Position numbers and translations under genes: made by a program. Shown here piece by piece: positions 1,891 to 54,228 of a stretch of DNA of 64,000 bases. Position 1 is the stretch's first letter. Each line of letters opens with the position of its first letter. Below the pieces are notes generated by a model, which saw only the letters and a program-made list of their open reading frames with translations, did not search any database and was not told the origin of the DNA. Source of the stretch: a virus; IMG/VR virus record IMGVR_UViG_3300023174_002543, positions 251,664 through 315,663 of that record; one strand, given 5' to 3'.

Positions 1891-2823
1891 CTAACGAATG
1901 TTATTGAAGTTTACATTTACTGCATAACCCACATCTGGATTATACTTGACCAACGCCTGAACTATATTTTCAAAACTTTGCCCAAATCTCTTTACTAATT
2001 TATCTAATGCTATAGGTTGATCTTTTTCATTCATAAATTGACCTTGATCGTCCGTATTATCAATCACAAAGTCTTCACCGTGAGTATGGTAATACTCATC
2101 AAGTTGATCACCCGAAGTTATGGGAATATCATCTATGAACACACTAAAGTATAACTGATATTTCTCACCCGTATATTGTGGTTGTTTTGGTAATAATATT
2201 ACTAATGGAAAACTACTATGATAACTATCAAAATAATTTGTTCCTGTTGTAGCCGCTGTGCACCAGCGAGTACCTTGACCATAATAACATGCCGCTTGTT
2301 TATTTTCAGGTATGATTGCTCTTACAGTATTATCTTGGTATAACTCTAATGCATTACCCTTTGCCATATTTGGATCAGTTGGGTCAGGATATTCATCTAG
2401 TACATCAAAAAAGTCTTCAAATGATCTGTACCCTAAAATATCGTTACGTGGACTAGATATCTTTTTACGTAATACAAGGTTATAAAACTTTGTCAAATAG
2501 TCGGTTAGTGTACTGCGTAAATCTTCAAATAACGTGCCATGAATATATTTCCACTCATTAATATAAGTTTTAATTATCCAGGGAGTATATTGATTATTTC
2601 TAGTAGGATCAACATTTTCAAATGCTTGTATTACTCTTGGTAAGTAGGTTTCAGCATTATTTTGAATCTCTTGTTCTATAGCATCACTACCAGTGATAGG
2701 TTTACGTATACCCAATTGCAATATCATGGTAGTGTCATTAACAATAGCTTGTAATAAGGCAGGACCAAACTTTTGAGTAGTTATAGCTCTGTTGTATTCA
2801 ATTAAAAATTCGTTTGCTCTCAT
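1891..2823 (-). CDS. Putative packaged protein with GxGTRWCTAA motif and T4-like targeting N-terminus
   Basis: A 310-residue protein of unknown activity. The N-terminus MRANEFLIE resembles the capsid-targeting sequence of T4 internal proteins (MKTYQEFIAE). Around residues 176-190 is ACYYGQGTRWCTAA, a W-C motif I recall from other large-phage proteins, flanked by beta-rich sequence (YQLYFSVFID). The start has AGGATG just upstream. It follows the 499-residue metalloprotease-like protein by 16 bases and probably shares its late transcript. No catalytic assignment is possible. Packaging in the head is inferred from the N-terminus alone. Confidence 0.6.
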   Translation of the reverse strand: MRANEFLIEYNRAITTQKFGPALLQAIVNDTTMILQLGIRKPITGSDAIEQEIQNNAETYLPRVIQAFENVDPTRNNQYTPWIIKTYINEWKYIHGTLFEDLRSTLTDYLTKFYNLVLRKKISSPRNDILGYRSFEDFFDVLDEYPDPTDPNMAKGNALELYQDNTVRAIIPENKQAACYYGQGTRWCTAATTGTNYFDSYHSSFPLVILLPKQPQYTGEKYQLYFSVFIDDIPITSGDQLDEYYHTHGEDFVIDNTDDQGQFMNEKDQPIALDKLVKRFGQSFENIVQALVKYNPDVGYAVNVNFNNIR

Positions 2824-2839
2824 TTAATCATCCTTTATG

Positions 2840-4339
2840 TTATTGAAACATTTCAGGGTGATCTTTACCGTATACTTTGATGTACTTACCAGCAGCCATA
2901 TCCGCCAGCATTTCAATTGGGCTACCTGGATAGCTATCACCATCTTTAATCATGTTCAATTGCATTTGACGATGATGTGTTAGTTCATGGAATATGGTAC
3001 GGAAGATATCAATTAAGTTTCTGTTACCAACATATACCCAAATATCATTACCTTTATGCACACCGGTATGATGACCTGCTTGTGCTACCTTAGTATTCTT
3101 ACTAATAGTAATCTTTGGATAAGGTTTTTGCATGTTAAGTGTCTTGTATGACCACTTAATAAAGTCTTTTATCTTTTGTATATCTTCCGGGCCTTCTACG
3201 CCCTCATTCACATTACTTTTTTTTTGGGATAATGGCGTGATGTTACCTTCTGGTTCTTTAACATCACGTTGTGTTGGTGGAAAAGTTCTTTTACCGTGTT
3301 GAACTTTATTCATTGGGCGCTTTAGTGGTAATACATCACCTTCCATCACACCTTGCTCATCTTCAGGTTTAGTAGTCAACACAAACTTCTTACCTGCATT
3401 AAATGACTTTGCCATCATTGTCCGAGCGGCTTTAGTAGCAGTTTCTTTGTTACGGTACTGATAGGGTGTGCCCATTTTATCTTTAACAATTTTACCATTA
3501 GCACGGATATACCATGTTCTTGTATCAACAGGATCTGGAACATGATATTCGTCATCTTCTCTATGACGCTTGCCTAAACTCGGGGAATTAGGATCTGCAA
3601 AACCATGACGATAACCGCTTTCCGCCACACCTTTAGTAACAATATAACCTTTGCCTTTACATTGTGGACAATTTGTAGCAACTTTTGTGCTATCTTTCTT
3701 TGTCATAGTATGATAACCTTTGCCATTACAATGTTTGCAATCGTGTGATGTGCTATCTTCCGCCACACCTAGTTTCTTATCTCTCTTTACAGCATCACTG
3801 TATGTTTTCAATACACTAGGATTCTTTTTAACAAGTTTGTTTAACTCTTTGCCACTTTCAATATCTTTTGACTTTTGAACATCTTTGGCGTATTTTTTAG
3901 TTAAGTCAGGTCTTGCCTTCAACAAATCTCTTAGCATTTTATCATATTCATCTTCTTCTAAACTGCCTTCCGCCACACCTTGTCTTCTACGCATAATTTC
4001 ATCAGTGATGGCAGCTATAATTTTTAATCCAATTTCATCTCTTTTGATAGTTTTAATCATACGCAAAAGATCGGATGTTGAATAATTTCTATAATGAGCA
4101 TGTCCGCTCTCGGTTACATCTTCTTCACCTAATCTGTTTTTGATTTTCTTAATCCAAGTATCAGGGGTATGTCCATATTTCTTAACAAACATGTCGTGTA
4201 ATTTTTTACCCGTGATTTTATGCTTAACAGAAATGTTTTGCATTAAACGGTCAATAGTGTCGTAGTTGTGGCGCTTAAGTTTAGGTAATCTATTCTTAAG
4301 TTCGTCTACGGCGGATTCTTCTAATTCGTGTGCTCTCAT
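2840..4339 (-). CDS. Modular CTS-type protein with DnaJ-like zinc cassette and HExxH metalloprotease domain
   Basis: A 499-residue chain of small cassettes. The N-terminus is MRAHELEESA. A helical cassette (about 15-72) and a second one (about 83-119) follow. CxxCxGxG pairs sit at 201-208 and 224-231, like half of a DnaJ zinc centre. A small basic domain spans about 274-325. The C-terminal domain has HELTH (451-455) with a downstream Glu (E477), a gluzincin-like zinc protease signature. The cassettes are separated by VTE/S (77), VAE/G (124), VAE/D (194), VAE/S (240), VME/G (333) and VNE/G (379), which resemble T4 prohead-protease sites. Start ATG 4339 lies 5 bases after a GATAAATA box and has no SD. 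Processing into peptides is inference. Confidence 0.7.
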   Translation of the reverse strand: MRAHELEESAVDELKNRLPKLKRHNYDTIDRLMQNISVKHKITGKKLHDMFVKKYGHTPDTWIKKIKNRLGEEDVTESGHAHYRNYSTSDLLRMIKTIKRDEIGLKIIAAITDEIMRRRQGVAEGSLEEDEYDKMLRDLLKARPDLTKKYAKDVQKSKDIESGKELNKLVKKNPSVLKTYSDAVKRDKKLGVAEDSTSHDCKHCNGKGYHTMTKKDSTKVATNCPQCKGKGYIVTKGVAESGYRHGFADPNSPSLGKRHREDDEYHVPDPVDTRTWYIRANGKIVKDKMGTPYQYRNKETATKAARTMMAKSFNAGKKFVLTTKPEDEQGVMEGDVLPLKRPMNKVQHGKRTFPPTQRDVKEPEGNITPLSQKKSNVNEGVEGPEDIQKIKDFIKWSYKTLNMQKPYPKITISKNTKVAQAGHHTGVHKGNDIWVYVGNRNLIDIFRTIFHELTHHRQMQLNMIKDGDSYPGSPIEMLADMAAGKYIKVYGKDHPEMFQ

Positions 4340-4450: not shown

Positions 4451-5917
4451 TTATTTTAAACCTGCGAGTGATTTAATTCTGTTTAGTGATTTAGATTCAT
4501 CTGCTTGCACTGATGATACATCTTCATCAGGTAATTTGTCATTTTTATTATCGGTTGATACTGAAGGGTTACTAGATGCTAATTGAGTTTTAGCAATACC
4601 GTCTAATGTATCACCACGTTTTATTGTATAATCTTGTCCACCTACTTTAATAGTATCTCCGGCTCTAATTTTGTTAACATCTTTAATTTTATCAGCATTT
4701 GCTTGCTGAATTGACTGTGCTCCTGCAGAGCCTTTATAACCTGAATCAGGTGATGCAACATTACGTGAATTTGGTGTAGTATTATTCGGTTCTGGTACAT
4801 CTACACCTTTTTCATCAGTGTTGGGTGTGGTAGGGGGTGCAACAGCAGGCGCCGGCGGTTGTGATTTAACAGATGGCTGAACAGGTGATTGACCACCTCG
4901 TCCGGTCATACCTTTGTTTGCTGCAGCAGCATTGGCTGCACTCGTAACAGGATTTAGATTAGTAGACTTTGCAGGAGAGTTATATGCATCTCTAGCCGCA
5001 TTGACTCCCATTGCACCAAAAGATATTGCAGGACCAAAACCCGGCACAAACCCGCCGGCTGCGCCTAATGCAGATATAACTGCACCTGTTCTATCACCTT
5101 TTTGATATCTTCTATATGCTTCTTCAGCATCTAATGCTATACCTGCACCGGGAATAACTCTTCCCAATACTTTTTTACCTATTGACTTTGCTCCGGCTTT
5201 TGCTCCAGCCTCTGCACCCGCTTCGACCCCTGTTGCTACGTTAGGTCTATTAGCAGGAACCTCTTTACCCATAACTGGATCTATTCTAGTACTGGTATCT
5301 AATGCCGGTGTTTTTTGACCAAGTGTTGATGATATCTTTCCTTTAGCCGCATCGACCCCGGCATCAATGGTGGCTCTAACTTTTTTACCTGCATTGTAAC
5401 CTGTATCATATGCGGCAGTATTAGCTGGTGGTGTAGAAGCCGGTTTAACAGGGACTTCTCTGCCCATAGAAGGTTCACCGGGTCTAGCTGTCCCTACATT
5501 ATCATTAGGAACCGGTCTTCCGCCTACAGATGCTCCAGGTTTATCTATTCCAACTCTATTTGGTATATTTCCAGATGATGTGTTAGAGACAGGTGGTGTT
5601 GATGATACTTGTCCAGTTCTGTTATTTTTCCATACTGCTGGGTCGGAACTAGAGACGGGTGGTGTTGAAGAAGTTACACCAGTTCTTGGGTTAGTCCAAA
5701 CTGATGGCTTATTATTTACTGTACGTGCAGGATCATATCCTAGGTCCTGCATAGTTTTTATTTGACTAGGTGTTAATGGTGTATTGGTTTTATTTAACGG
5801 TACGCCTGCTTTTTCTAAATCTAATTGTGCTTTATATACAGCCGCTTGTCTAGGATCAGCTAAGTTTACAGTAGGCTTAGTTGCTTCGTTAATTTTATTA
5901 AATTCACTGAATCTCAT
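4451..5917 (-). CDS. Pro/Ala/Gly-rich CTS-type protein with glycine-zipper segment and LysM-like motif
   Basis: A 488-residue protein. N-terminus MRFSEFNKINEA fits the T4 internal-protein targeting pattern with a Glu/Ala junction. Residues 70-225 are low-complexity and Pro-rich, with a duplicated VW-x-N-x-R-T-G-x-x-SSTPPVS unit (73-89 and 95-111). Residues 228-310 are Gly/Ala-rich and hydrophobic (AGAEAGAKAGAKSIG, then ALGAAGGFVPGFGPAISFG), like membrane-inserting glycine zippers. Near 411-440 is LysM-like sequence (YTIKRGDTLDGIAK). Together these suggest a virion-delivered envelope-interacting protein; that role is inferred. ATG 5917 lies 7 bases past a late box and has no SD. Confidence 0.65.
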   Translation of the reverse strand: MRFSEFNKINEATKPTVNLADPRQAAVYKAQLDLEKAGVPLNKTNTPLTPSQIKTMQDLGYDPARTVNNKPSVWTNPRTGVTSSTPPVSSSDPAVWKNNRTGQVSSTPPVSNTSSGNIPNRVGIDKPGASVGGRPVPNDNVGTARPGEPSMGREVPVKPASTPPANTAAYDTGYNAGKKVRATIDAGVDAAKGKISSTLGQKTPALDTSTRIDPVMGKEVPANRPNVATGVEAGAEAGAKAGAKSIGKKVLGRVIPGAGIALDAEEAYRRYQKGDRTGAVISALGAAGGFVPGFGPAISFGAMGVNAARDAYNSPAKSTNLNPVTSAANAAAANKGMTGRGGQSPVQPSVKSQPPAPAVAPPTTPNTDEKGVDVPEPNNTTPNSRNVASPDSGYKGSAGAQSIQQANADKIKDVNKIRAGDTIKVGGQDYTIKRGDTLDGIAKTQLASSNPSVSTDNKNDKLPDEDVSSVQADESKSLNRIKSLAGLK

Positions 5918-5934: not shown

Positions 5935-6012
5935 TTAAACCGGGCTGTATGGATTGCGAAATTTATCGTAACCGTCATCTTCAGGGTATACAGGATAATC
6001 GTTTGGATTCAT
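5935..6012 (-). CDS. Micro-ORF of 25 residues coupled to dps
   Basis: The reading frame encodes MNPNDYPVYPEDDGYDKF followed by RNPYSPV. Its ATG overlaps the dps stop codon (TAATG) and it fills the spacer up to the late promoter at 5925. The composition is Asp/Tyr/Pro-rich and acidic. Termination-reinitiation coupling is typical in this genome, which supports a real gene, but the size alone does not exclude chance. Confidence 0.45.
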   Translation of the reverse strand: MNPNDYPVYPEDDGYDKFRNPYSPV

Positions 6013-6452
6013 TATTCACGCTCAGTTTTAAGAATACTACGAATGAACCAAGCCTTCTTACCATATAAGTCTTGTAGTTCAGCCATATAGTTAGCAATAC
6101 CTTGTTGACGGTCTTCTGTTGCTTGGTCAAACATTGTAGTAACTAACTCAAGCATTTTTTCAATGTCTTGTAATGTTTCTGCAAACATTAATTGAGCACG
6201 TGGAATTTTTGTTTGGTCTTCAATAATAGTTAGTTCAGCATATCGTTGTAAACTACCTGGAGTATAACTACCTACTATTCTGATATACTCTGCAATAGTA
6301 TCAATTGTTTCATTTACATCTTGGTATAGTGTATCATAGAATTGATGATATTGTGGGAAATTACTACCTTCAATGTTCCAATGAAAGTTTTGACTTTTAA
6401 TAGCAAAACTCTGTGTGCTTGCTAATAATATTTTTAGGCTATCTGATAACAT
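6012..6452 (-). CDS. dps: Dps-family ferritin-like DNA protection protein
   Basis: A 146-residue four-helix protein. The inter-subunit ferroxidase ligands of Dps are all present with exact family spacing: H24 (in FHWN), H36 and D40 (YHQFYD), and D51 and E55 (DTIAEYI). E. coli Dps has H51, H63, D67, D78, E82. Dps dodecamers oxidise Fe(II) with peroxide, store iron and coat DNA. Here it lies within the run of putative packaged proteins. An AGAGGG lies about 11 bases upstream of ATG 6452. It could protect phage or host DNA, or condense the host nucleoid. Family identity is firm; the phage role is inference. Confidence 0.9.
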   Translation of the reverse strand: MLSDSLKILLASTQSFAIKSQNFHWNIEGSNFPQYHQFYDTLYQDVNETIDTIAEYIRIVGSYTPGSLQRYAELTIIEDQTKIPRAQLMFAETLQDIEKMLELVTTMFDQATEDRQQGIANYMAELQDLYGKKAWFIRSILKTERE

Positions 6453-6507: not shown

Positions 6508-8151
6508 TTAGTGTTTCAATAACAATGTACTTAGTACACCTGTATCATTAGCACTTAAATCTGGCTCACCGGGTGCTACGATAACATTATATTTCATACT
6601 AGTGTTTTGGCTTTTCTTTACTGCCCACTCATCATAACTTAATATTGAGTTAGCACTAATGCCATATTCTTTTGCTAGTCGTTGTTTTAGTTCAGGTAGT
6701 TGGTCCGGTTTTACTTGCCACTGTCCTTCAGTACCTTTGACTAAATTACCCTTAGCATCTTTAACTAATAAGTCTTGGAATAGTCCAGTTGGTACAATAC
6801 GACTATTCTTAGTTTTATCTAAGTTAGGATCAGCAGCTTTAACTTGTTTCTCTTGTGAAGTGTGTGCGCCCTCACTCCAATTAATAATGAAGTTGCTTGG
6901 TTTTTGTGCAAGTGCAGCATTAGCCATTTTAGTATAAGCATAGAATTTAACGTCAGGTAAACTTTGTGCTAACTTAAATGCCAAGTCTAAGTATTCTGGA
7001 CTAAAGAAGTCGCCAGCATCATGCCAGCGAATACTAACAGAGTATCCACCCTTCTTACCTAAACTTTCTTCTTTAGCAATTTCATTTGCTAGTTGTTCAA
7101 AGAAACCATCTGGGTTATTCAATAGATATGTAATAATACGACCATCACTTAACCATGCGGCTTCAAACTGAATCTTACCACCTTTCATAGCAAAGCAATC
7201 TATTTTACAACTACCAGCACCCGGACATGTGTTGACTACAATTAAGTTGTTTGTGTTTTCATCTAGTGCAAGACCAACTAATGCAGCAAAGCCAATGTTA
7301 AAGAACTGTTCTAAGTCACCGTTGCTGTGCTTCATCTTTTCATTTTGCTTTAGTAACTTTTTAGGACGAACTGCTAATGCTTGTTTAACATCTTCTTCGC
7401 GGTATCTTTTACCAGTAGCATCATAATACTTGATTACGCTACTACGATGAATGTAAGGCATACGATATTTGTCTTGCTTTGTTTTACCAGACACATATTT
7501 CTCTTTGCCTTTTTTATCTAATTTAACTTGACCTGTTTTCTTATCAATGTCAGGAGTACCCGCAATACGTGTCATGTAGTCTTGGAATTCTTGCCCAGCA
7601 ATGTCACGCTGGTCAATAGGTAGTTTAGTTGCTTCATCTATACCCATATCTTTGTGACGTTGGGCTATTGATTCTTTAGCGCCTAATTGACTAAGTGCTT
7701 CTGCAGCTTTTGCTAGAGCCTCAGGGTTAGCAGAAGGGAATTTATTCATAATAAACTGTACTATGCTATTACTCCAAAGATACATTTTTTCTTTGTTATT
7801 CAAATCATGTTCAATTGATGGAGTAGGTACATAATATTGTTTATTAGATTTATATTCCTGCCATAATCTGTCATATTGAGTTGAATCTACAGGAGTAACG
7901 ATATTATGCATCATGCGTTGAAATGCTTCTTGATTCTTATCAATTCCGGTCTTTTTACCTAATATTCTGAGAACATAATTTTTTAATTTGTTTATTCCAT
8001 TACTAAAAGCACCTTCGTCTAATTCTTCATTATCATCAAAGTCATCTGCCTCAGGATGTTGAACAAACTGGTCAACACTCATAATTTTAATGCCGCTAGG
8101 CGCACCGGGTAATTTAGGCGTTGCGCCTTCCATTAATTCTATGATATTCAT
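6508..8151 (-). CDS. CTS-type protein with GP88-like domain
   Basis: A 547-residue protein. The N-terminus MNIIELMEGATP has a Glu-Gly/Ala junction typical of this locus, and a second ELDEGAF lies at about 44-50. The C-terminal half matches what I recall of the phage GP88 family: CPGAGSCKIDCFAMKGG (about 307-323), RWHDAGDFFSPEYLDLAF (about 373-390) and FYAYTK. The family has no settled biochemical function; its clustered Cys suggest metal binding. ATG 8151 overlaps the stop of the preceding gene (ATGA). It is probably co-packaged if the N-terminus is a true targeting signal. Confidence 0.65.
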   Translation of the reverse strand: MNIIELMEGATPKLPGAPSGIKIMSVDQFVQHPEADDFDDNEELDEGAFSNGINKLKNYVLRILGKKTGIDKNQEAFQRMMHNIVTPVDSTQYDRLWQEYKSNKQYYVPTPSIEHDLNNKEKMYLWSNSIVQFIMNKFPSANPEALAKAAEALSQLGAKESIAQRHKDMGIDEATKLPIDQRDIAGQEFQDYMTRIAGTPDIDKKTGQVKLDKKGKEKYVSGKTKQDKYRMPYIHRSSVIKYYDATGKRYREEDVKQALAVRPKKLLKQNEKMKHSNGDLEQFFNIGFAALVGLALDENTNNLIVVNTCPGAGSCKIDCFAMKGGKIQFEAAWLSDGRIITYLLNNPDGFFEQLANEIAKEESLGKKGGYSVSIRWHDAGDFFSPEYLDLAFKLAQSLPDVKFYAYTKMANAALAQKPSNFIINWSEGAHTSQEKQVKAADPNLDKTKNSRIVPTGLFQDLLVKDAKGNLVKGTEGQWQVKPDQLPELKQRLAKEYGISANSILSYDEWAVKKSQNTSMKYNVIVAPGEPDLSANDTGVLSTLLLKH

Positions 8152-9962
8152 TTGTTATTTCCTGATAGTCTAAGTAAGTTATTTAATTCAACTGTAGATT
8201 CACCTAAATCTTTTGGTTTTTCTTGTTGTTTATTTTTGGCATCTTGTTCTTGTGCTTTACGCTTTAAGTTAGCAATCATTTTAGCCCATTGTTCAGGAGT
8301 ATATAGTCCACCAATTAAGCCATCATCTTCATCATCTTTTACTTCTGCTACTTCTTTTTTGTCATTTGGTTCATCTGGTATTGGAACTGGTTTAACTGAG
8401 TGCCAACCCGGCCCGGGTGGTGCCATCACTACATCAAAGTTTTTACCACCACCTAATTCTAATATCTTTTTGATATTATTCATTGTTTTAGTTTCAGAAG
8501 AATTTTTAACAACAACAGTACCATCTGGTTTAATTTCATGTACTAATTGCTGAACAATATTAGACATGCCGGGCATTTTTTTTGAACCACGATTCAATGC
8601 TTTCTTAGCGGCAGCTGCCTGTGGGCTAGAATTCTCATGTATTTGTTTTTGCATTGACGATGCAGGTACTATAGTCCAATTACTATCATATGGGTGTGTT
8701 TTATGTAATTCGGTACTTGCTTGTACTTTAGGTATTGGCCCGGTTACATCATCACCCTTTCCGTGATATTTTCCGTGAAAATCTAAATTACCGCGCATCA
8801 CTATATACCACTGGTCATTAGATACAAGTTCATTTAGTTCAACGGATTCGTTATGTTTTTTTTTACTGACAGAATCTTTAAATGATTGTGCAGTTGGTGC
8901 ACCTTTGCTACCCGGCTTACGCATATGCTCACCTGAACCATTTTTGATTCGTTTTTGTTTAGCATGTATGTTAGCCCATAGACCCTTGCTTTCTTCTTCT
9001 ATTTCGTCACCGGGTGTAGGTGTCGTTGGTGCTGCGGTAGGTGTTGCGGCTGGGTTGCCTCCAGCAGTAGCCGGAGGATAATCGGCCGCTGTTTTACGGG
9101 CACTCGGCGCTACTCCATTTGTATATTGTGTTGGTTTCAACGTAGCATTAGGCATGTTGTTTGGGTTAACTACACTTTTAGCCATTCCCTGAATATTTGA
9201 TGCCGCTTGATTAGCATCAAATTTTTCTAACTCATCTGGATTAGCAGAGTTAATAGTTTGTTGTGCTTGCAGATATTGCTGTTGTTGTTGCGGTGATAAT
9301 CTTGCGTATTCAGGGTCTTTTGTTGGGTCTTGGCCTCTGAATCTTCTAACGTCATTAGAAACACCTCTCATTAATTGAGGTGTAAATTGTCTAATAGCAT
9401 TACCGGCTTGTTGTGCTTGTTGTGCTGGGTTACCTGCTTCTTTTAGTTTTGAAATTTTTTGTTCAGCAATCATTACTAATTGTTTTAGTTCTTGTACACT
9501 CTCACAATGCCATCTACGTAAACTCTTATTGATATTACTGTTTGGATCTCTTGCAGTCTTAGCACCTGTACGATGCTTTTTCATACCACGCATTCTAGCA
9601 CAGAAACTAGCACGGCGTTTTGCAGATTTACTACCCTTTTTTAATTTACTAGGCTTAGTAGTTACAGCAGTTTGAATTTTACTACCTGGATGACTACGGC
9701 GATAACTCTTTACAGATTTTTGACTCATGCCGCCTGCACGTGGATTGTTATGCTTGCTCCAGTTCTCACCTTCCGCCAATTCATCTTTTTTAGAAATAGC
9801 AATTGCTGCCTGTTGTTTGGCATTAGCGGCTTCATTTGCCGGTACACAATTGTTAACTCTAACTCCGCCCTTCATTTTAGTGCCTTGCTTTTTATAGCCT
9901 GTCCAGCACTTAGGATCAAGTCGTTTCTTTTCTTCTACAATCGTAATTTGATTTATTTTCAT
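8148..9962 (-). CDS. Modular basic CTS-type protein with recurring phage cassettes
   Basis: 604 residues. N-terminus MKINQITIVEEKK. Cassette 1 (about 16-41) contains CWTGYKKQGTKMKGGVRVNN. After LAE/G (64) comes a strongly basic cassette (70-153) with SYRRSHPGSK, AKRRASFCARMRGMKK and KTARDPNSNINKSLRRWHC, a module I recall in many phage ORFs. A Gln/Ala-rich middle follows, then KGLWANIHAKQKRIKNGSGE (about 326-346), another recurrent phage module, and DQWYIVMRGN. Acidic linkers with NES/NEL/EES may be cleavage sites. Charge suggests DNA binding. It overlaps both neighbours by ATGA, so it sits in a tight operon. Function unknown. Confidence 0.65.
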   Translation of the reverse strand: MKINQITIVEEKKRLDPKCWTGYKKQGTKMKGGVRVNNCVPANEAANAKQQAAIAISKKDELAEGENWSKHNNPRAGGMSQKSVKSYRRSHPGSKIQTAVTTKPSKLKKGSKSAKRRASFCARMRGMKKHRTGAKTARDPNSNINKSLRRWHCESVQELKQLVMIAEQKISKLKEAGNPAQQAQQAGNAIRQFTPQLMRGVSNDVRRFRGQDPTKDPEYARLSPQQQQQYLQAQQTINSANPDELEKFDANQAASNIQGMAKSVVNPNNMPNATLKPTQYTNGVAPSARKTAADYPPATAGGNPAATPTAAPTTPTPGDEIEEESKGLWANIHAKQKRIKNGSGEHMRKPGSKGAPTAQSFKDSVSKKKHNESVELNELVSNDQWYIVMRGNLDFHGKYHGKGDDVTGPIPKVQASTELHKTHPYDSNWTIVPASSMQKQIHENSSPQAAAAKKALNRGSKKMPGMSNIVQQLVHEIKPDGTVVVKNSSETKTMNNIKKILELGGGKNFDVVMAPPGPGWHSVKPVPIPDEPNDKKEVAEVKDDEDDGLIGGLYTPEQWAKMIANLKRKAQEQDAKNKQQEKPKDLGESTVELNNLLRLSGNNK

Positions 9963-40103: not shown

Positions 40104-43100
40104 TTATTTTATACCGCTTAATTTTTTCCAATCAGTTAACAATTCTGTTGCGTCTTTTAGTAATTTTGTTTCCATTGTAACTTTTTGAATATTTCCTGTT
40201 GATTGGGTGCGTTTTTCTCTATGCAAATCATTACCCATAGATAACAATTCTTTTAGTTGCAATAATTCTGTATCACCCATTGCGTCTCCACCTGCGTCAT
40301 TTGAATAGCCTTCTTCAACATGGTCACAACCACATGATTCCATTGGGTAACCACATTCGTTGCAATTTTCTTGCCCTTCTTCAATAGAACTAGTGTCTTT
40401 ATATGACTTATCACCCATCTTAAATTCGCCACCTTTTGGTGTTTGTGCTAATTTACCAGTGAATGCATTACCTTCTTCCATGTCACCTTCTTCAATAGAA
40501 CTAGTGTCTTTATATGACTTATCACCCATCTTGAATTCACCACCTTTTGGTGTTTTTCTTAATTTATCAGTGAATGCATTACCTTCATCAACTTCATCGT
40601 CATCTTGTTCCGGTGGGTCATAAGTTATAGTTGGTTCTGGATTCATTTTTCTAAGACCGCCCATTCCTGATTCAGGTTCTTCATCAGAATCACGCCACTT
40701 CATAGTTACAGTTTGAGGTCTTGTAGGTGTCACACCATCATCGTCTTCCGGTAACTCTGTGCTACCACCAGGATATTCTGCTCTTAATTCAGATACTTGT
40801 CCATCACTGCCGGGTGTAGCAGGAGGGGGTGCGGGTGTTGATGGTGGATGAGTATCATCTGGGCTTGGTTTAGCAACAATAGGTTCTGATAGATATTGTT
40901 CATCTACTTCTTCATTACCTTCTTCATCTTCGTAATCACCTTCAACTGACCCGGGTGTACCTGGATCGCTTGCTATACCTGACATTTTCTTAATTAATGC
41001 AAGCATGTCATCACCGTCACCAACTACATCTGGACTTGGTGCAATTTTAATGCCTTGATGAAATTCTTCTTCGTCACCCTCATCACCTTGCATAGGTGCG
41101 CCATAACCACTGTTTTGTTCTTTACTTCCACCAAACATTCCCATGCCTGAATTACGTAAAATACTCATCAATTCACCTGCATCATGCTCAGTTGCATTAA
41201 TGCTCAATGAATCAGGTGATCCTTGTTGGCCAGTACTATGTGATACTGTAATACCTTCTACTAATAAACTGTTGAGTTCACGTTCCCAGCTTTCAAATTG
41301 TTTATCTTTCATATCATTACTTTCGTTAAATGTTTGCGGTGTACTTAATGTTTTTAAGAATCCATTACTACCGGTAGCAGGAGTTCTTGGAACTGCCATT
41401 GGGCTACCTGGCTTACTAAAATCGCTACCTGGCTTAGCACCAGGATTTTGTCTATAACTACTTAAATCATTAGGTGTACGTGTAGCAAATCTTTCTTTAT
41501 CTGCATTTGCAAAAGTGTTGAATGGTAATTCTTTTTCATGGGCTAGATATTTCAATGTTTGATTTACTAATTCATTTTGACTAGAGTTATCTAAACCATC
41601 ATATTCATCACCGTGTTTAACTAATGCTTTTAAGATTTCTTCGGCCTGTTGAACGTTTCGTGCTTTCTTAAGGTCAAATACACTGCCATCACCTTTATGT
41701 GATTCTACGTCAGAGTAGAAGTTAATTAGTAGGTCCTTCATTGCACCTTCTGTTAATTGTGTTGCTTTCATAGTTGTGCTTTCTTTGACTTTTTTCTTGT
41801 TGTCATACTTGTCATACTTGTTACGGATAGTATCTAATTTCTTTTCACTAGCACCTTCACGACCAGCCTTGGCCAATGCTTCCATGCCTTCTTTGCCGTA
41901 TTTTTCATGACCTTTAGCTGCACGACTCATACGTTTCTTGTCTTCTGATACATTTTCTTCATCCACTGTTAAATCAACATTAGTCACTGACGGATGTGGA
42001 GAACTATCTCCGCGTGTGGGCGGGGACAACTCATTATGTCTACGTGGCTGCATTGGATTGATTAGTTTCTTTCCGGCTGGAAGATCTTCAAAATCAGGAC
42101 CAAAACCACGGATTTCAACACGTGGTATATCGTACTGGGCGTATTCGTCAGAGTTTTCTAACTTTAATGGATTCAATCTATTATCATCACCTGGTCTTCT
42201 ACCACCAAGTCCTGTACCGCCGCCCATACCACCACCTCGACCTGCACTACCACCGGGTGTATTCATTGGGATACGGCCTACTTTAGTGTCAGTAACTGCT
42301 GGCACAACTTTTGAAGCAAGACGACCGTCACCGGGAGTAACAATTTCTTTTCCACTTTGTTTAAAACTAGGATTCTTGTCATAGAAATCCTGATGTGATT
42401 TATTCATCCTAGAGGTATCTAAGTCTGGTTTACCGTAACGTTGATTCATTGAATCTTTATATTCTTGATTGCTAAGTTTTCCTGGGTTGGACATTGAAAC
42501 TTCGTCTTCTTCCATTGGGCGCTTGGCACCACCGTGATTCATTCTGAAAAGTTGTTTAAACTCTTTAGATATTGGTATTGGTGACTGTTGTGCAGGAGGT
42601 GTATTTTGTGATGCATCTTCACCAACATGGTCAGGTAGACCTTTGTGTTTAGTCTTTGCAAAGTCTTTGGCATCTTTCTTGCCGATATCTTTTGCAACAC
42701 CTTTTAATTCTTTACTTGCACCAGGAACTTTCTTTCCTTTTTGCATTGCATGAACCATACCAAAGAAACGTTGTTGGGCCTTACTCTTAGCCTTCTCGCT
42801 GATAACACCTTCTTCACCAGTTTCACGTTCCATATCACGTTCTTTTTCACTAGCAATATAATCCATTACACCAACCATCATGCCTTTTGCCTGACTAACT
42901 TTTTCTTGTACCCATTCAGGTAAGTCTTCTGAGTCACTTAGTTTTTCTTCTAAATGACTAGTTACTCTTGCAATAGTATGTAATTGGTTCTTTACGTAAT
43001 CACCTTCCATGCCATATTCAGCTGGATCATGTGAACCGTGTTCTTCATCATCAAACTCATCTTCACCTAAAGAATTATTAACACCTTGGTCAGCATCACC

Positions 43101-43595
43101 TGCACCCGGTAATGATATATCACCGGTAGCCATTAAGTCTTTAATCTTTGTTGCAGATTGTTGATCCTTAGCAGTAATACCAGTTGGTTGATTATTCATT
43201 GTAATTTCACTTGCGCCTGGCAGTGGCTTAACACCTAAACTAGCATCTTCATTCAATGCCAATTCTGCTTCTTCAATATATTCTTTCAATGAGTGTTTAA
43301 CAGATTTCTTACCTACTTCTTTGCTTGGCTTCTTGCCACCACCAAATACTGAACCTAATGTTGCTGTGTCGTATTTTTTAACTTCACCTGAATCATCAGC
43401 ACCCTTCTTAGGACGACCACGACCCTTTTTAGGTGCTTCTTTTTTATCTTCTGCACCTTTGTTTACTTTACCAACTTTATGCCCATATTGGTCACGAACA
43501 TCTTCTTTGCCATAACTGTTACCATAAGTACCTTTATGAACTTTACTATCTTCATTAATAGCATCTAGTGATTGTATTAGGCTTCTGAAATCCAT
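40104..43595 (-). CDS. Large modular cassette protein with AT-hook, DUF3008-like module and internal CTS-like start
   Basis: 1163 residues, highly charged. MDFRSLIQSLDAINED resembles a targeting head. An AT-hook GRGRPKK sits at 58-64. A helical module (EDLPEWVQEKVSQAKGMM, about 223-240) follows, then KSKAQQRFFGMVHAMQKGKK to DFAKTKHKGLPDHV (270-324), which I recall as a DUF3008-type module. MSRAAKGHEKYGKEGMEAL is next. At base 41771 MKATQLTEGAMKDLL repeats the locus-type N-terminus inside the chain. The tail has a duplicated 37-residue EGNAFTxKL unit and a CNECGYPMESCGC zinc-like motif. It is probably a processed, DNA-associated virion protein. SD AAGGA precedes ATG 43595. Confidence 0.7.
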   Translation of the reverse strand: MDFRSLIQSLDAINEDSKVHKGTYGNSYGKEDVRDQYGHKVGKVNKGAEDKKEAPKKGRGRPKKGADDSGEVKKYDTATLGSVFGGGKKPSKEVGKKSVKHSLKEYIEEAELALNEDASLGVKPLPGASEITMNNQPTGITAKDQQSATKIKDLMATGDISLPGAGDADQGVNNSLGEDEFDDEEHGSHDPAEYGMEGDYVKNQLHTIARVTSHLEEKLSDSEDLPEWVQEKVSQAKGMMVGVMDYIASEKERDMERETGEEGVISEKAKSKAQQRFFGMVHAMQKGKKVPGASKELKGVAKDIGKKDAKDFAKTKHKGLPDHVGEDASQNTPPAQQSPIPISKEFKQLFRMNHGGAKRPMEEDEVSMSNPGKLSNQEYKDSMNQRYGKPDLDTSRMNKSHQDFYDKNPSFKQSGKEIVTPGDGRLASKVVPAVTDTKVGRIPMNTPGGSAGRGGGMGGGTGLGGRRPGDDNRLNPLKLENSDEYAQYDIPRVEIRGFGPDFEDLPAGKKLINPMQPRRHNELSPPTRGDSSPHPSVTNVDLTVDEENVSEDKKRMSRAAKGHEKYGKEGMEALAKAGREGASEKKLDTIRNKYDKYDNKKKVKESTTMKATQLTEGAMKDLLINFYSDVESHKGDGSVFDLKKARNVQQAEEILKALVKHGDEYDGLDNSSQNELVNQTLKYLAHEKELPFNTFANADKERFATRTPNDLSSYRQNPGAKPGSDFSKPGSPMAVPRTPATGSNGFLKTLSTPQTFNESNDMKDKQFESWERELNSLLVEGITVSHSTGQQGSPDSLSINATEHDAGELMSILRNSGMGMFGGSKEQNSGYGAPMQGDEGDEEEFHQGIKIAPSPDVVGDGDDMLALIKKMSGIASDPGTPGSVEGDYEDEEGNEEVDEQYLSEPIVAKPSPDDTHPPSTPAPPPATPGSDGQVSELRAEYPGGSTELPEDDDGVTPTRPQTVTMKWRDSDEEPESGMGGLRKMNPEPTITYDPPEQDDDEVDEGNAFTDKLRKTPKGGEFKMGDKSYKDTSSIEEGDMEEGNAFTGKLAQTPKGGEFKMGDKSYKDTSSIEEGQENCNECGYPMESCGCDHVEEGYSNDAGGDAMGDTELLQLKELLSMGNDLHREKRTQSTGNIQKVTMETKLLKDATELLTDWKKLSGIK
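40376..40592 (-). repeat. 111-bp tandem duplication in cassette protein
   Basis: Two in-frame copies of a 37-codon unit (EGNAFT-KL--TPKGGEFKMG region), offset exactly 111 bases (starts 40376 and 40487) and almost identical in DNA, so a recent duplication. Confidence 0.85.
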
Positions 43596-43822: not shown

Positions 43823-44434
43823 TTATTTACCTTTGTTTATTCTAGCATTACCCGTCAGTGGTTTCTGAATGGGGGTTATCTTTGACATTGGACTTTGTGT
43901 ATTGATACCTTCTTTGCTCTTGTTAGGACTTGATGGAGTCTTTGGCGCATCAAATACATAGTCAATACTAGGTCTCTTAGGGACCACTTTGTCTAGGTAC
44001 TGATTAGCATAATCTTTACTAGCTTGCTTACCATTGTCTTCCATTTCAGGTTGCAGTAATAATGGCTCTGCCTTCATTTCATTTCCAAACTTTTCACTTT
44101 CTGCATTGATACTATCATTGTAATCAGTAGTAGTAACTCTAACTTTATTGATGTTGCATCCTAATAATTGTGCAACTTGCTGAATCATTGGTTCATTAGC
44201 TGGGTATTTGAATTCAGCTTTAATTATGGTAATTGATTCGTTTTGCAGTTCAGGAAATCCATATGGATCTTTTTGAATAGGGGTGGTTTTTGGATCTTCA
44301 ATTTTAACTGGGTCAAATTTTGAAAGATTATGCATGAACATATCCAAGAAATTCTTATCTAAATCACCTGCGATTTTGATAGTATACTTGTATGTTCTTG
44401 CTGATTCCATTAGATAGTGACGAAGGCTTTTCAT
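43823..44434 (-). CDS. CTS-type protein in head gene region
   Basis: 203 residues. MKSLRHYLMESARTYKYTI fits the targeting pattern with Glu-Ser/Ala. The following domain (IKIAGDLDKNFLDMFMHNL, then ITIIKAEFKYP) is compact and I recall it from other T4-like phages without a known role. A Pro/Lys-rich C-terminal tail ends the protein. It has its own late box with AGGA upstream. It may be a head core or internal protein; that is inference. Confidence 0.6.
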   Translation of the reverse strand: MKSLRHYLMESARTYKYTIKIAGDLDKNFLDMFMHNLSKFDPVKIEDPKTTPIQKDPYGFPELQNESITIIKAEFKYPANEPMIQQVAQLLGCNINKVRVTTTDYNDSINAESEKFGNEMKAEPLLLQPEMEDNGKQASKDYANQYLDKVVPKRPSIDYVFDAPKTPSSPNKSKEGINTQSPMSKITPIQKPLTGNARINKGK

Positions 44435-52627: not shown

Positions 52628-53467
52628 TTATATTAATTTAGAAAGATTTGGGTCGGATAAAATAAATTGTTTTGCTTTTTTAATATCCGTTTCACTTACA
52701 CCTTCCATAGTGTAAACATAACGGGCATCTTCTTCTGATATTGGTACTAGTTTGATACTTTCAATCTTATTGTTAAAGTATAAATTTTTAGGCTTTCCAC
52801 GATGAAGACCATCAACGTCTATCCATTCTATTTGGTCAAATGATTTTACACAACAAATATGAGAAATTTCTGTACTGTCTTCTTCTTCAAAATCATCATA
52901 ATAGTATCCAGTCCATGCACCTAGGGGTAATTTTGTTAGTTGATGTAGTGCCATAGCAAATGCATCACACATTCCAGACCTATATATTGATTTAGAATCA
53001 GATTCATTAACTTGTTTTGGTCTAGTCAACGTGAATCTTAATCCATACTCTGGGCTATAATCTTCCTCTGCATCCCAATTTGGTAATAGTCTTTGAACCA
53101 TTTTTCTATATAGTGCGATACGACTATTCTCTTTTGCGTCAAATGCAATTTGTTGTACACTATCACCATAGTATTGTAAAAATTCACGCATAATGTCTAC
53201 TGCGATTGACATTACTTCTGCTGAGTTCCCTGTACCTGTTGTACCGAATAATTCTAATTTTTCAGGGTCACTTGCTTGTCGCACTAGACGAAATTGTACT
53301 TCCCATTTATGTGGTTTATCATCTCTAAAATGGCTAAATGCTTGCCATACATAGTCTCTATTACCTACAGTAAATTTAGCAATAGCCTCAGTATCAGCCT
53401 TGTATTTCCAAGTCCAGTTTTGTTTACCATGTTGGAATAATTCAGCAATGAATTCAGTTGCTCTCAT
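52628..53467 (-). CDS. CTS-type protein with GNAT-like and papain/transglutaminase-like domains
   Basis: 279 residues from ATG 53467, which overlaps the upstream stop (TAATG). N-terminus MRATEFIAEL nearly equals the T4 capsid-targeting sequence MKTYQEFIAE. Domain 1 (about 15-145) ends with a GNAT-like NSRIALYRKMVQRLLP. VNE/SD (155) may be a cleavage site. Domain 2 has C167 (SGMCDAFAMALHQ), H203 (EISHICCV) and D217 (EWIDVDGLH), a Cys-His-Asp triad as in papain/transglutaminase-fold enzymes. Both activities are predictions. Confidence 0.65.
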   Translation of the reverse strand: MRATEFIAELFQHGKQNWTWKYKADTEAIAKFTVGNRDYVWQAFSHFRDDKPHKWEVQFRLVRQASDPEKLELFGTTGTGNSAEVMSIAVDIMREFLQYYGDSVQQIAFDAKENSRIALYRKMVQRLLPNWDAEEDYSPEYGLRFTLTRPKQVNESDSKSIYRSGMCDAFAMALHQLTKLPLGAWTGYYYDDFEEEDSTEISHICCVKSFDQIEWIDVDGLHRGKPKNLYFNNKIESIKLVPISEEDARYVYTMEGVSETDIKKAKQFILSDPNLSKLI

Positions 53468-54228
53468 TAACCTTGAATCCAAGTCAATGGTTGGCTATAG
53501 TCTACGTAATTCTTTAAGTCTAATAATAACTGGTCTTGCATTGCTTTGGCTTCTGACTTAAGTGCAGTTCCATTTAATGTAGATCCACCACCTGGTCCTG
53601 CAATAGTACCAAATTTTTCACGTGCTTCGCCTATAGTTAGTTTAAGTTGGCTAAGTGTCCAATCTCCAATCCAAACGCCTGCACCCGGGTCTTGTAATAA
53701 TTCTGACTCAGGTCTTTGAGTATCGGCCCAAACTAATATTTGTTCACCGGAACCTTTGATGTTTCGTACTAAACGAATTTGTTTTGTTACAGGATTGAAT
53801 GTGTAAACAATATATCCACCAAACATACGTGCGGCTAGTTCGATATACCCTGCATAAAAATCATAGGTTGCTAAACCGCCGGCGGCATTATAATTAAGCA
53901 AATATGTATTGAGAATAGCACTTGAAAATGGATCAAAACTACTAGCAGCTGGTCCTGTTTCTAGACCAATTGTTCTACGAAATACTTGTCTAACATTTAT
54001 AAATTCAGGAGGCAAGGTATAAGTATCTACCCCTGATTGCAACGTCATTAATGTGTATGATTCAACAGTAGCATTTTGAGCACGTTGGCGATATATTTTA
54101 ACTGAATATCCATACGCAGCCTCAAAGTGCTCAGGACCAATTTCTAAATCAATAATACCGTCACCTAAACGATATCGTAAACTTTGATATAATTCTTGTT
54201 TAAGTTCTTCTAAACTTTTTGTAGCCAT
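53467..54228 (-). CDS. Neck/head-tail adaptor protein, gp13-like candidate
   Basis: 253 residues. The N-terminal helix LKQELYQSLRYRLGDGIIDL is typical of neck adaptors. Beta-rich centre (VDTYTLPPEFINVRQVFRR, YIVYTFNPVTKQIRLVRN) and helical end (AKAMQDQLLLDLKNY). The gp14 and gp15 genes are close by on the opposite strand. Assignment to gp13 is by context and pattern. Translation may be switched by the hairpin at 54233-54261. Confidence 0.6.
   Translation of the reverse strand: MATKSLEELKQELYQSLRYRLGDGIIDLEIGPEHFEAAYGYSVKIYRQRAQNATVESYTLMTLQSGVDTYTLPPEFINVRQVFRRTIGLETGPAASSFDPFSSAILNTYLLNYNAAGGLATYDFYAGYIELAARMFGGYIVYTFNPVTKQIRLVRNIKGSGEQILVWADTQRPESELLQDPGAGVWIGDWTLSQLKLTIGEAREKFGTIAGPGGGSTLNGTALKSEAKAMQDQLLLDLKNYVDYSQPLTWIQG

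Follow-up and report, generated by a model that had tools for sequence, protein, structure and literature searches.

The window analysed here, a stretch of 64,000 nucleotides, belongs to a viral record of 367,104 bases that we assign to a T4-like jumbo phage because it encodes a family B DNA polymerase and T4-type gp21, gp22 and gp23. The polymerase gene (polB) is the neighbour of an ATG-initiated ORF of 499 amino acids on the minus strand, located as the earlier note on this DNA had placed it. That note had read the protein as a series of compact cassettes separated by six VTE, VAE, VME or VNE junctions, and the description is borne out: there are six VxE/(G/S/D) sites that delimit seven segments (Table 1). 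Composition shuffles of the ORF have a mean of 0.33 VxE[GSD] sites, with 0 of 5000 reaching six, and the remaining window ORFs that reach 140 aa together hold only 11 in 18,629 aa, five of them within one ORF. These two comparisons rule out a chance origin of the six junctions. The seven predicted pieces are 46–120 aa long, every one with a pI of 9–10. A search of bacterial genomes with the 499-aa ORF returned no relative.

Table 1. Features of the cassette ORF and the GP88-like gene, in window coordinates.
Feature	Position	Strand	Description
Cassette polyprotein ORF	2840..4339	-	499 aa, seven segments, six VxE/(G/S/D) junctions
Segment 1	4109..4339	-	aa 1-77; CTS-like start MRAHELEES and small domain phrog_10346
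Segment 2	3968..4108	-	aa 78-124; STSDLL cassette
Segment 3	3758..3967	-	aa 125-194; LEEDEY cassette
Segment 4	3620..3757	-	aa 195-240; DnaJ/anti-TRAP-like zinc cassette, two CxxCxGxG
Segment 5	3341..3619	-	aa 241-333; WYIRANGK cassette; L016 and L046 have stretches like it
Segment 6	3203..3340	-	aa 334-379; basic, short
Segment 7	2843..3202	-	aa 380-499; zincin-like metallopeptidase domain, HELTH 451-455, E476
Junction DVTE/S	4109..4120	-	Glu77; ordinary codons, non-seam
Junction GVAE/G	3968..3979	-	Glu124; GGTGTGGCGGAA, exact seam
Junction GVAE/D	3758..3769	-	Glu194; GGTGTGGCGGAA, exact seam
Junction GVAE/S	3620..3631	-	Glu240; GGTGTGGCGGAA, exact seam
Junction GVME/G	3341..3352	-	Glu333; GGTGTGATGGAA, seam with two changes
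Junction NVNE/G	3203..3214	-	Glu379; non-seam
GP88-like gene	6508..8151	-	PF17338, E 6e-24; CTS-like start MNIIELMEG

The domains recognised in the protein are a DnaJ-like zinc module and a zincin, the other segments being without a known domain; the small phrog_10346 domain of segment 1 is also present in cyanophages such as S-N03 and S-SCSM2R. The HELTH motif that the earlier note saw in the last cassette is there, and the second glutamate is E476 rather than E477. In an alignment of segment 7 across 14 sequences, H75, E76, H79 and E100 are invariant, and a confident AlphaFold2 model (pLDDT 87, pTM 0.84) comprises a helix, three strands and two helices. As modelled, segment 7 is a minimal zincin: an HExxH helix, a downstream helix carrying the glutamate and a three-stranded sheet. 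The model has weak matches in the PDB (E at least 0.02), the best being 6mdw, a protease of DNA–protein crosslink repair, and another a jannalysin; a PDB sequence search with the zincin profile gave no match. A homologue of segment 7 is a stand-alone gene in cyanophage S-SRM01. Segment 4 matches PF00684 (E 3e-6) and Anti-TRAP (E 1e-5), both under the curated cut-off. It falls short of a full DnaJ central zinc domain, scoring 27.7 bits against a cut-off of 32.7 and having two CxxCxGxG repeats instead of four. The DnaJ-like cassette reported earlier thus exists, on weak matches and two repeats, and is not the surprising module it was taken for: 13 of 284 cassettes carry two or more CxxC pairs.

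Conservation of the GVAE junctions extends to their DNA. For the codon and slot statistics we used loci fetched by protein search, because contigs fetched with the seam itself, and chance matches, enter the motif counts. In these loci the sequence GGTGTGGCGGAA is exact in 51 of the 69 distinct GVAE junctions; valine is encoded by GTG in 65/69 (11% elsewhere) and alanine by GCG in 63/69 (7% elsewhere). Strong conservation extends over 16 nt, AAGGTGTGGCGGAAGG, from two bases before the junction codons to two after, and then ends. Junctions of the xVDE type use ordinary valine codons (GTG in 3/51). GVAE junctions therefore spread, or are maintained, as DNA. The seam is read in a single frame: 264 of 266 distinct motif sites encode GVAE. 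Single-copy 15-mer matches in viral contigs include chance ones (the two out-of-frame sites).

At the protein level the motif persists where the DNA differs. The STSDLL cassette of segment 2 recurs in the GP88-like gene of two contigs, L234 and L235, and is bounded at each end by VDE, which in L234 replaces the VTE and VAE of the window. Cultured marine cyanophages have related modular proteins that keep VxE junctions and lack the DNA seam. Since VxE is kept with varied DNA, these seam-free phages included, the protein junction looks older and wider than the seam. A DNA element without protein meaning is ruled out by the single frame and by the retention of VxE where the DNA differs; a generic Chi-like hotspot is unsupported, given one frame and few copies per genome. 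The cyanophage modular proteins lie at L242 979-3153, L243 2173-4029 and L244 1091-2374 and have VxE-type junctions with ordinary junction codons; those of S-SCSM2R and Bellamy adjoin terminase genes, and S-B43 has one annotated as a structural protein.

A search of viral contigs with the 499-aa ORF yielded 27 loci, many of which match at one cassette only, inside an otherwise unrelated protein. The DNA of cassette 3 is 95–97% identical to that of L016 and L019–L026 over exactly the unit junction–cassette–junction, with little identity beyond it, and these copies lie in other, unrelated ORFs, although the GP88-like gene of two such phages (L159 and L163) shares 75–77% DNA identity with that of the window; the zinc cassette of segment 4 has 97% DNA identity to L027. 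Cassettes also change place within genes. In L159 and L163 one cassette (226/226 nt identical) stands at two positions within one gene, the constant parts of which are 85–94% identical; contig L142 holds an identical cassette twice. Over polB and the zincin, L003 shares 91% identity with the window, yet its middle cassettes are all different. Cassette order, which the earlier note had proposed to compare, differs among related phages, as predicted. Homology breakpoints coincide with [VILM]xE at 68 of 129 right ends (53%) and 135 of 374 left ends (36%), compared with 7% and 9%, respectively, at random positions; we read these figures as an enrichment and not as a P value because the pairs are non-independent, and about half of the right and two thirds of the left breakpoints fall outside recognised junctions. 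We consider it near certain that the cassettes are mobile and that the GVAE junctions form a DNA seam; neither property had been noticed in the earlier note.

The GP88-like gene offers a measure of how fast this happens. In its homologues, from 80 contigs or loci, the N-terminus and the enzyme are constant and enclose a slot that holds between zero and six different cassettes; L193, L222, L229 and L237 carry empty alleles. Slot contents are alike in 20/20 pairs with backbone identity of at least 99%, in 0/10 pairs at 95–99% and in 0/45 at 90–95%, pair counts that are non-independent. On this sequence comparison the slot is turned over within 1–5% backbone divergence. The boundary between slot and enzyme reads [VILM]xE/A in 73 of 73 readable loci, the hexapeptide upstream taking 18 forms and the DNA and the P2 residue varying as well. 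Loss of junction residues alongside conserved cassettes, which the earlier note had named as a refutation, is not seen: [VILM]xE stays in all 73 loci while neighbours and DNA change. Trading of cassettes through a fixed 16-letter seam suggests fast reshuffling of head-carried proteins.

What might cut at these junctions? A gp21-type (S77) prohead protease is encoded at G000:62222-62683 (PF03420, E 3.2e-29) and was aligned to T4 gp21. The homologue is found in the window genome and in five of the eight carrier records above 260 kb; PF03420 was not found in 12 of the 18 carrier records searched, many of which are fragments. T4 gp21 cuts after glutamate; its known sites include gp23 after residue 65 and, in Alt, ITE-6 and LTE-619 (PMC5694885). 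In the T4 record the gp23 site is SFLTE/A; gp23 of the window phage has SLLAE/S at the aligned place, and its gp22 scaffold has VAE/G, VAE/S and many similar sites. The six window junctions and all 73 GP88-like boundaries fit the same pattern of an aliphatic P3, Glu at P1 and a small P1'. With the gp21 gene and the gp23 and gp22 sites alongside these boundaries, the reading of the junctions as prohead-protease sites, put forward in the earlier note, stands as regards the type of site; that the phage's prohead protease does cut them is, judging from sequence, likely.

N-termini may point to the head as well. Starts resembling the capsid-targeting sequence (CTS) of T4 are seen in 83 of 119 junction ORFs and 323 of 1062 other ORFs, the pattern being loose enough that 30% of the latter fit it; MRAHELEES of the window ORF fits this loose pattern too (LEE/S). 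T4 ipII and ipIII start with MKTYQEFIAEA, and the window phage has a start MRASEFITEA. The ten N-terminal residues of T4 IPIII are enough to direct a protein into the head, and proteins fused to them undergo processing and delivery (PMC9026906). Starts of the MRAxEFIxE type, or similar, are present in further ORFs at window 1891-2823, 52628-53482 and 43823-44434 and at L034 813-4946, where GVAE and GVTE junctions are followed by a peptidoglycan-hydrolase-like end; many proteins with such starts may be packaged by the phage.

Other genes of interest in this context include a 1163-aa ORF at window 40104-43595 with 14 [VIL]xE[GSDA] sites, likely a second head protein that undergoes processing; 148 phage records, almost all from cyanophages, match a short part of it. 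Candidate head proteins at window 4451-5917, 40104-43595 and 8148-9962 have alike C-terminal tails (SLNRIKSLAGLK, LLTDWKKLSGIK and ELNNLLRLSGNNK), which the tail of the gp22 scaffold (NNVIDLRRLAGL; L158 4831-5931) resembles, and this common tail is possibly a core-binding C-terminal tag. The same motif (RIRKLSGL) stands before the enzyme in many GP88-like slots. A ferritin/Dps-like protein (PF00210, E 7e-16) is encoded at window 6012-6452, between candidate head-protein genes. In the cassette-bearing protein at L049 1582-4269, the N-terminal third has matches among the virion structural proteins that Pseudomonas jumbo phages such as PA5oct encode (26% identity).

The explanation we favour, and regard as probable, is that these polyproteins are targeted to the head and cut there by the prohead protease, at sites that also serve as recombination seams. 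The polyprotein of the T4-like jumbo phage would consist of a CTS-like N-terminus, exchangeable cassettes and a terminal enzyme, here the zincin, and each [V/I/L/M]xE/small boundary would most likely be cut by the gp21-type protease inside the prohead. If every cassette boundary is cut, an in-frame insertion would add one more small peptide of its own and do no damage to the pieces beside it. The 16-bp seam AAGGTGTGGCGGAAGG, encoding Gly-Val-Ala-Glu, would let cassettes be gained, lost and permuted and would pass them between phages and between head-protein genes that are not related, the simplest route being homologous recombination or strand annealing. The ORF, its junctions, cassette exchange with breakpoints at junctions, the seam and its frame, the retention of [VILM]xE and the protease gene are read from sequence, whereas we infer packaging, cleavage, delivery to the host, the mode of recombination and what the cassettes do.

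The alternative that survives best sees the cassettes as disposable hitch-hikers in a propeptide that is cleared, insertion being nearly neutral and the terminal enzyme alone mattering. Most arrays do lie between a CTS-like start and the enzyme, turnover is very fast, and the long propeptides of SPN3US, with several cuts, mostly exit the head (PMC10052503). We nevertheless hold it unlikely: the cassettes are under purifying selection, with a median pN/pS of 0.23 (65 pairs) compared with 0.21 for the first 80 enzyme residues, which is evidence against pure filler, and recognisable Pfam domains are found among the carriers, namely GNAT, DnaJ-like zinc modules, LysM, DUF6321, GH19 and ParB-like. 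The zinc cassette pair of the window and L027 differs at four sites with a pN/pS of 1.8, that is, no purifying selection. The selection seen across cassettes fits functional peptides, at least some of which would have a role inside the head or in the host; that each peptide is a delivered effector is possible, though we lean slightly against it. Basic charge fails as a trait of the class, cassettes at large having a median pI of 7.2 and being less uniformly basic than the pieces of the window protein, for which it holds.

Alternatively, the protein might stay uncut, like polyvalent proteins, its junctions being flexible linkers and recombination seams with VxE copied along with the DNA. Conservation of the GVAE DNA does far exceed what its protein meaning calls for, and polyvalent proteins, the N4 virion RNA polymerase for one, enter the capsid without being processed (PMC5512222). 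This is hard to reconcile with a slot/enzyme boundary that is [VILM]xE without exception despite varied DNA and P2 residues, with the recurrence of segment 2 between VDE ends and with VxE kept in seam-free cultured cyanophages, and we rate an uncut protein as quite unlikely. Improbable, too, is that the seam is the site of a dedicated recombinase or homing-type nuclease instead of a substrate of general phage recombination: conservation is sharply limited to 16 nt with little similarity outside, as such a site would have, but the seam holds a single reading frame, and the Pfam matches of 59 carrier proteins, the carriers being the only proteins covered, include no recombinase or homing endonuclease family. 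Chimeric assembly through short seam repeats is very improbable, for although every seam-bearing genome here is a metagenome contig, the same arrays recur across separate samples (L023/L025; L024/L026; L168-L171; L174/L175; L182/L183), differences between shared cassettes are mostly synonymous and cultured cyanophages have modular VxE proteins.

How does a processed, seam-joined polyprotein compare with known systems? The window protein resembles the internal head proteins of T4 (IPI–III and Alt) in its CTS-like N-terminus, the gp21 homologue, the hydrophobic-x-E site and its small basic pieces; however, T4 IPs are separate genes, whereas here several peptides share one chain and move between genes via a DNA seam. 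Short shared sequences serve as exchange points in phage mosaicism at conserved boundaries, in integron cassette arrays and in repeat-flanked vls cassettes; here, in contrast, exchange takes place within reading frames and between non-homologous cassettes, and the seam also encodes a likely protease site. Head proteins of phiKZ and SPN3US likewise have several prohead-protease sites per precursor with Glu at P1, their long propeptides being cut at several (A/S)xE sites, but the protease is of the diverged gp175/gp245 type, and the available parts of these reports describe neither mobile cassettes nor DNA-conserved junctions (PMC10052503, PMC5694885). Polyvalent proteins are phage proteins of several domains, presumed to be packaged and then injected and often equipped with a zincin metallopeptidase, for which the authors themselves draw the polyprotein analogy; the accessible text ascribes release to embedded peptidases and describes no fixed protease-site junctions or recombination seam (PMC5512222). 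Unlike these, the pieces here are small (median 79 aa). The open-access literature searched, most subscription papers aside, gave no match for GVAEG in phages or for mobile cassettes with prohead-protease junctions. We file the window protein as a variant of T4-type processed head proteins, itself new; a separate category may be warranted for the mobile seam-joined cassette.

Whether an in-frame cassette without a mobility gene of its own, its 16-bp end being both recombination seam and prohead-protease site, amounts to a new kind of mobile unit is in our judgement evenly balanced. If it does, head-carried peptides could be added, dropped and traded in any carrier gene without harm, and in-frame insertions would be tolerated on a new principle, that of a cut site which is a recombination seam as well. 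The phages would possess a modular reserve of peptides that are carried in the head and reshuffled quickly, and anti-defence or takeover factors, of which T4 IPI is one, are likely to come from it. The fixed seam provides a simple handle on many small phage proteins, most of them unknown, in metagenomic data and, if our reading is right, how phages diversify their injected content becomes testable.
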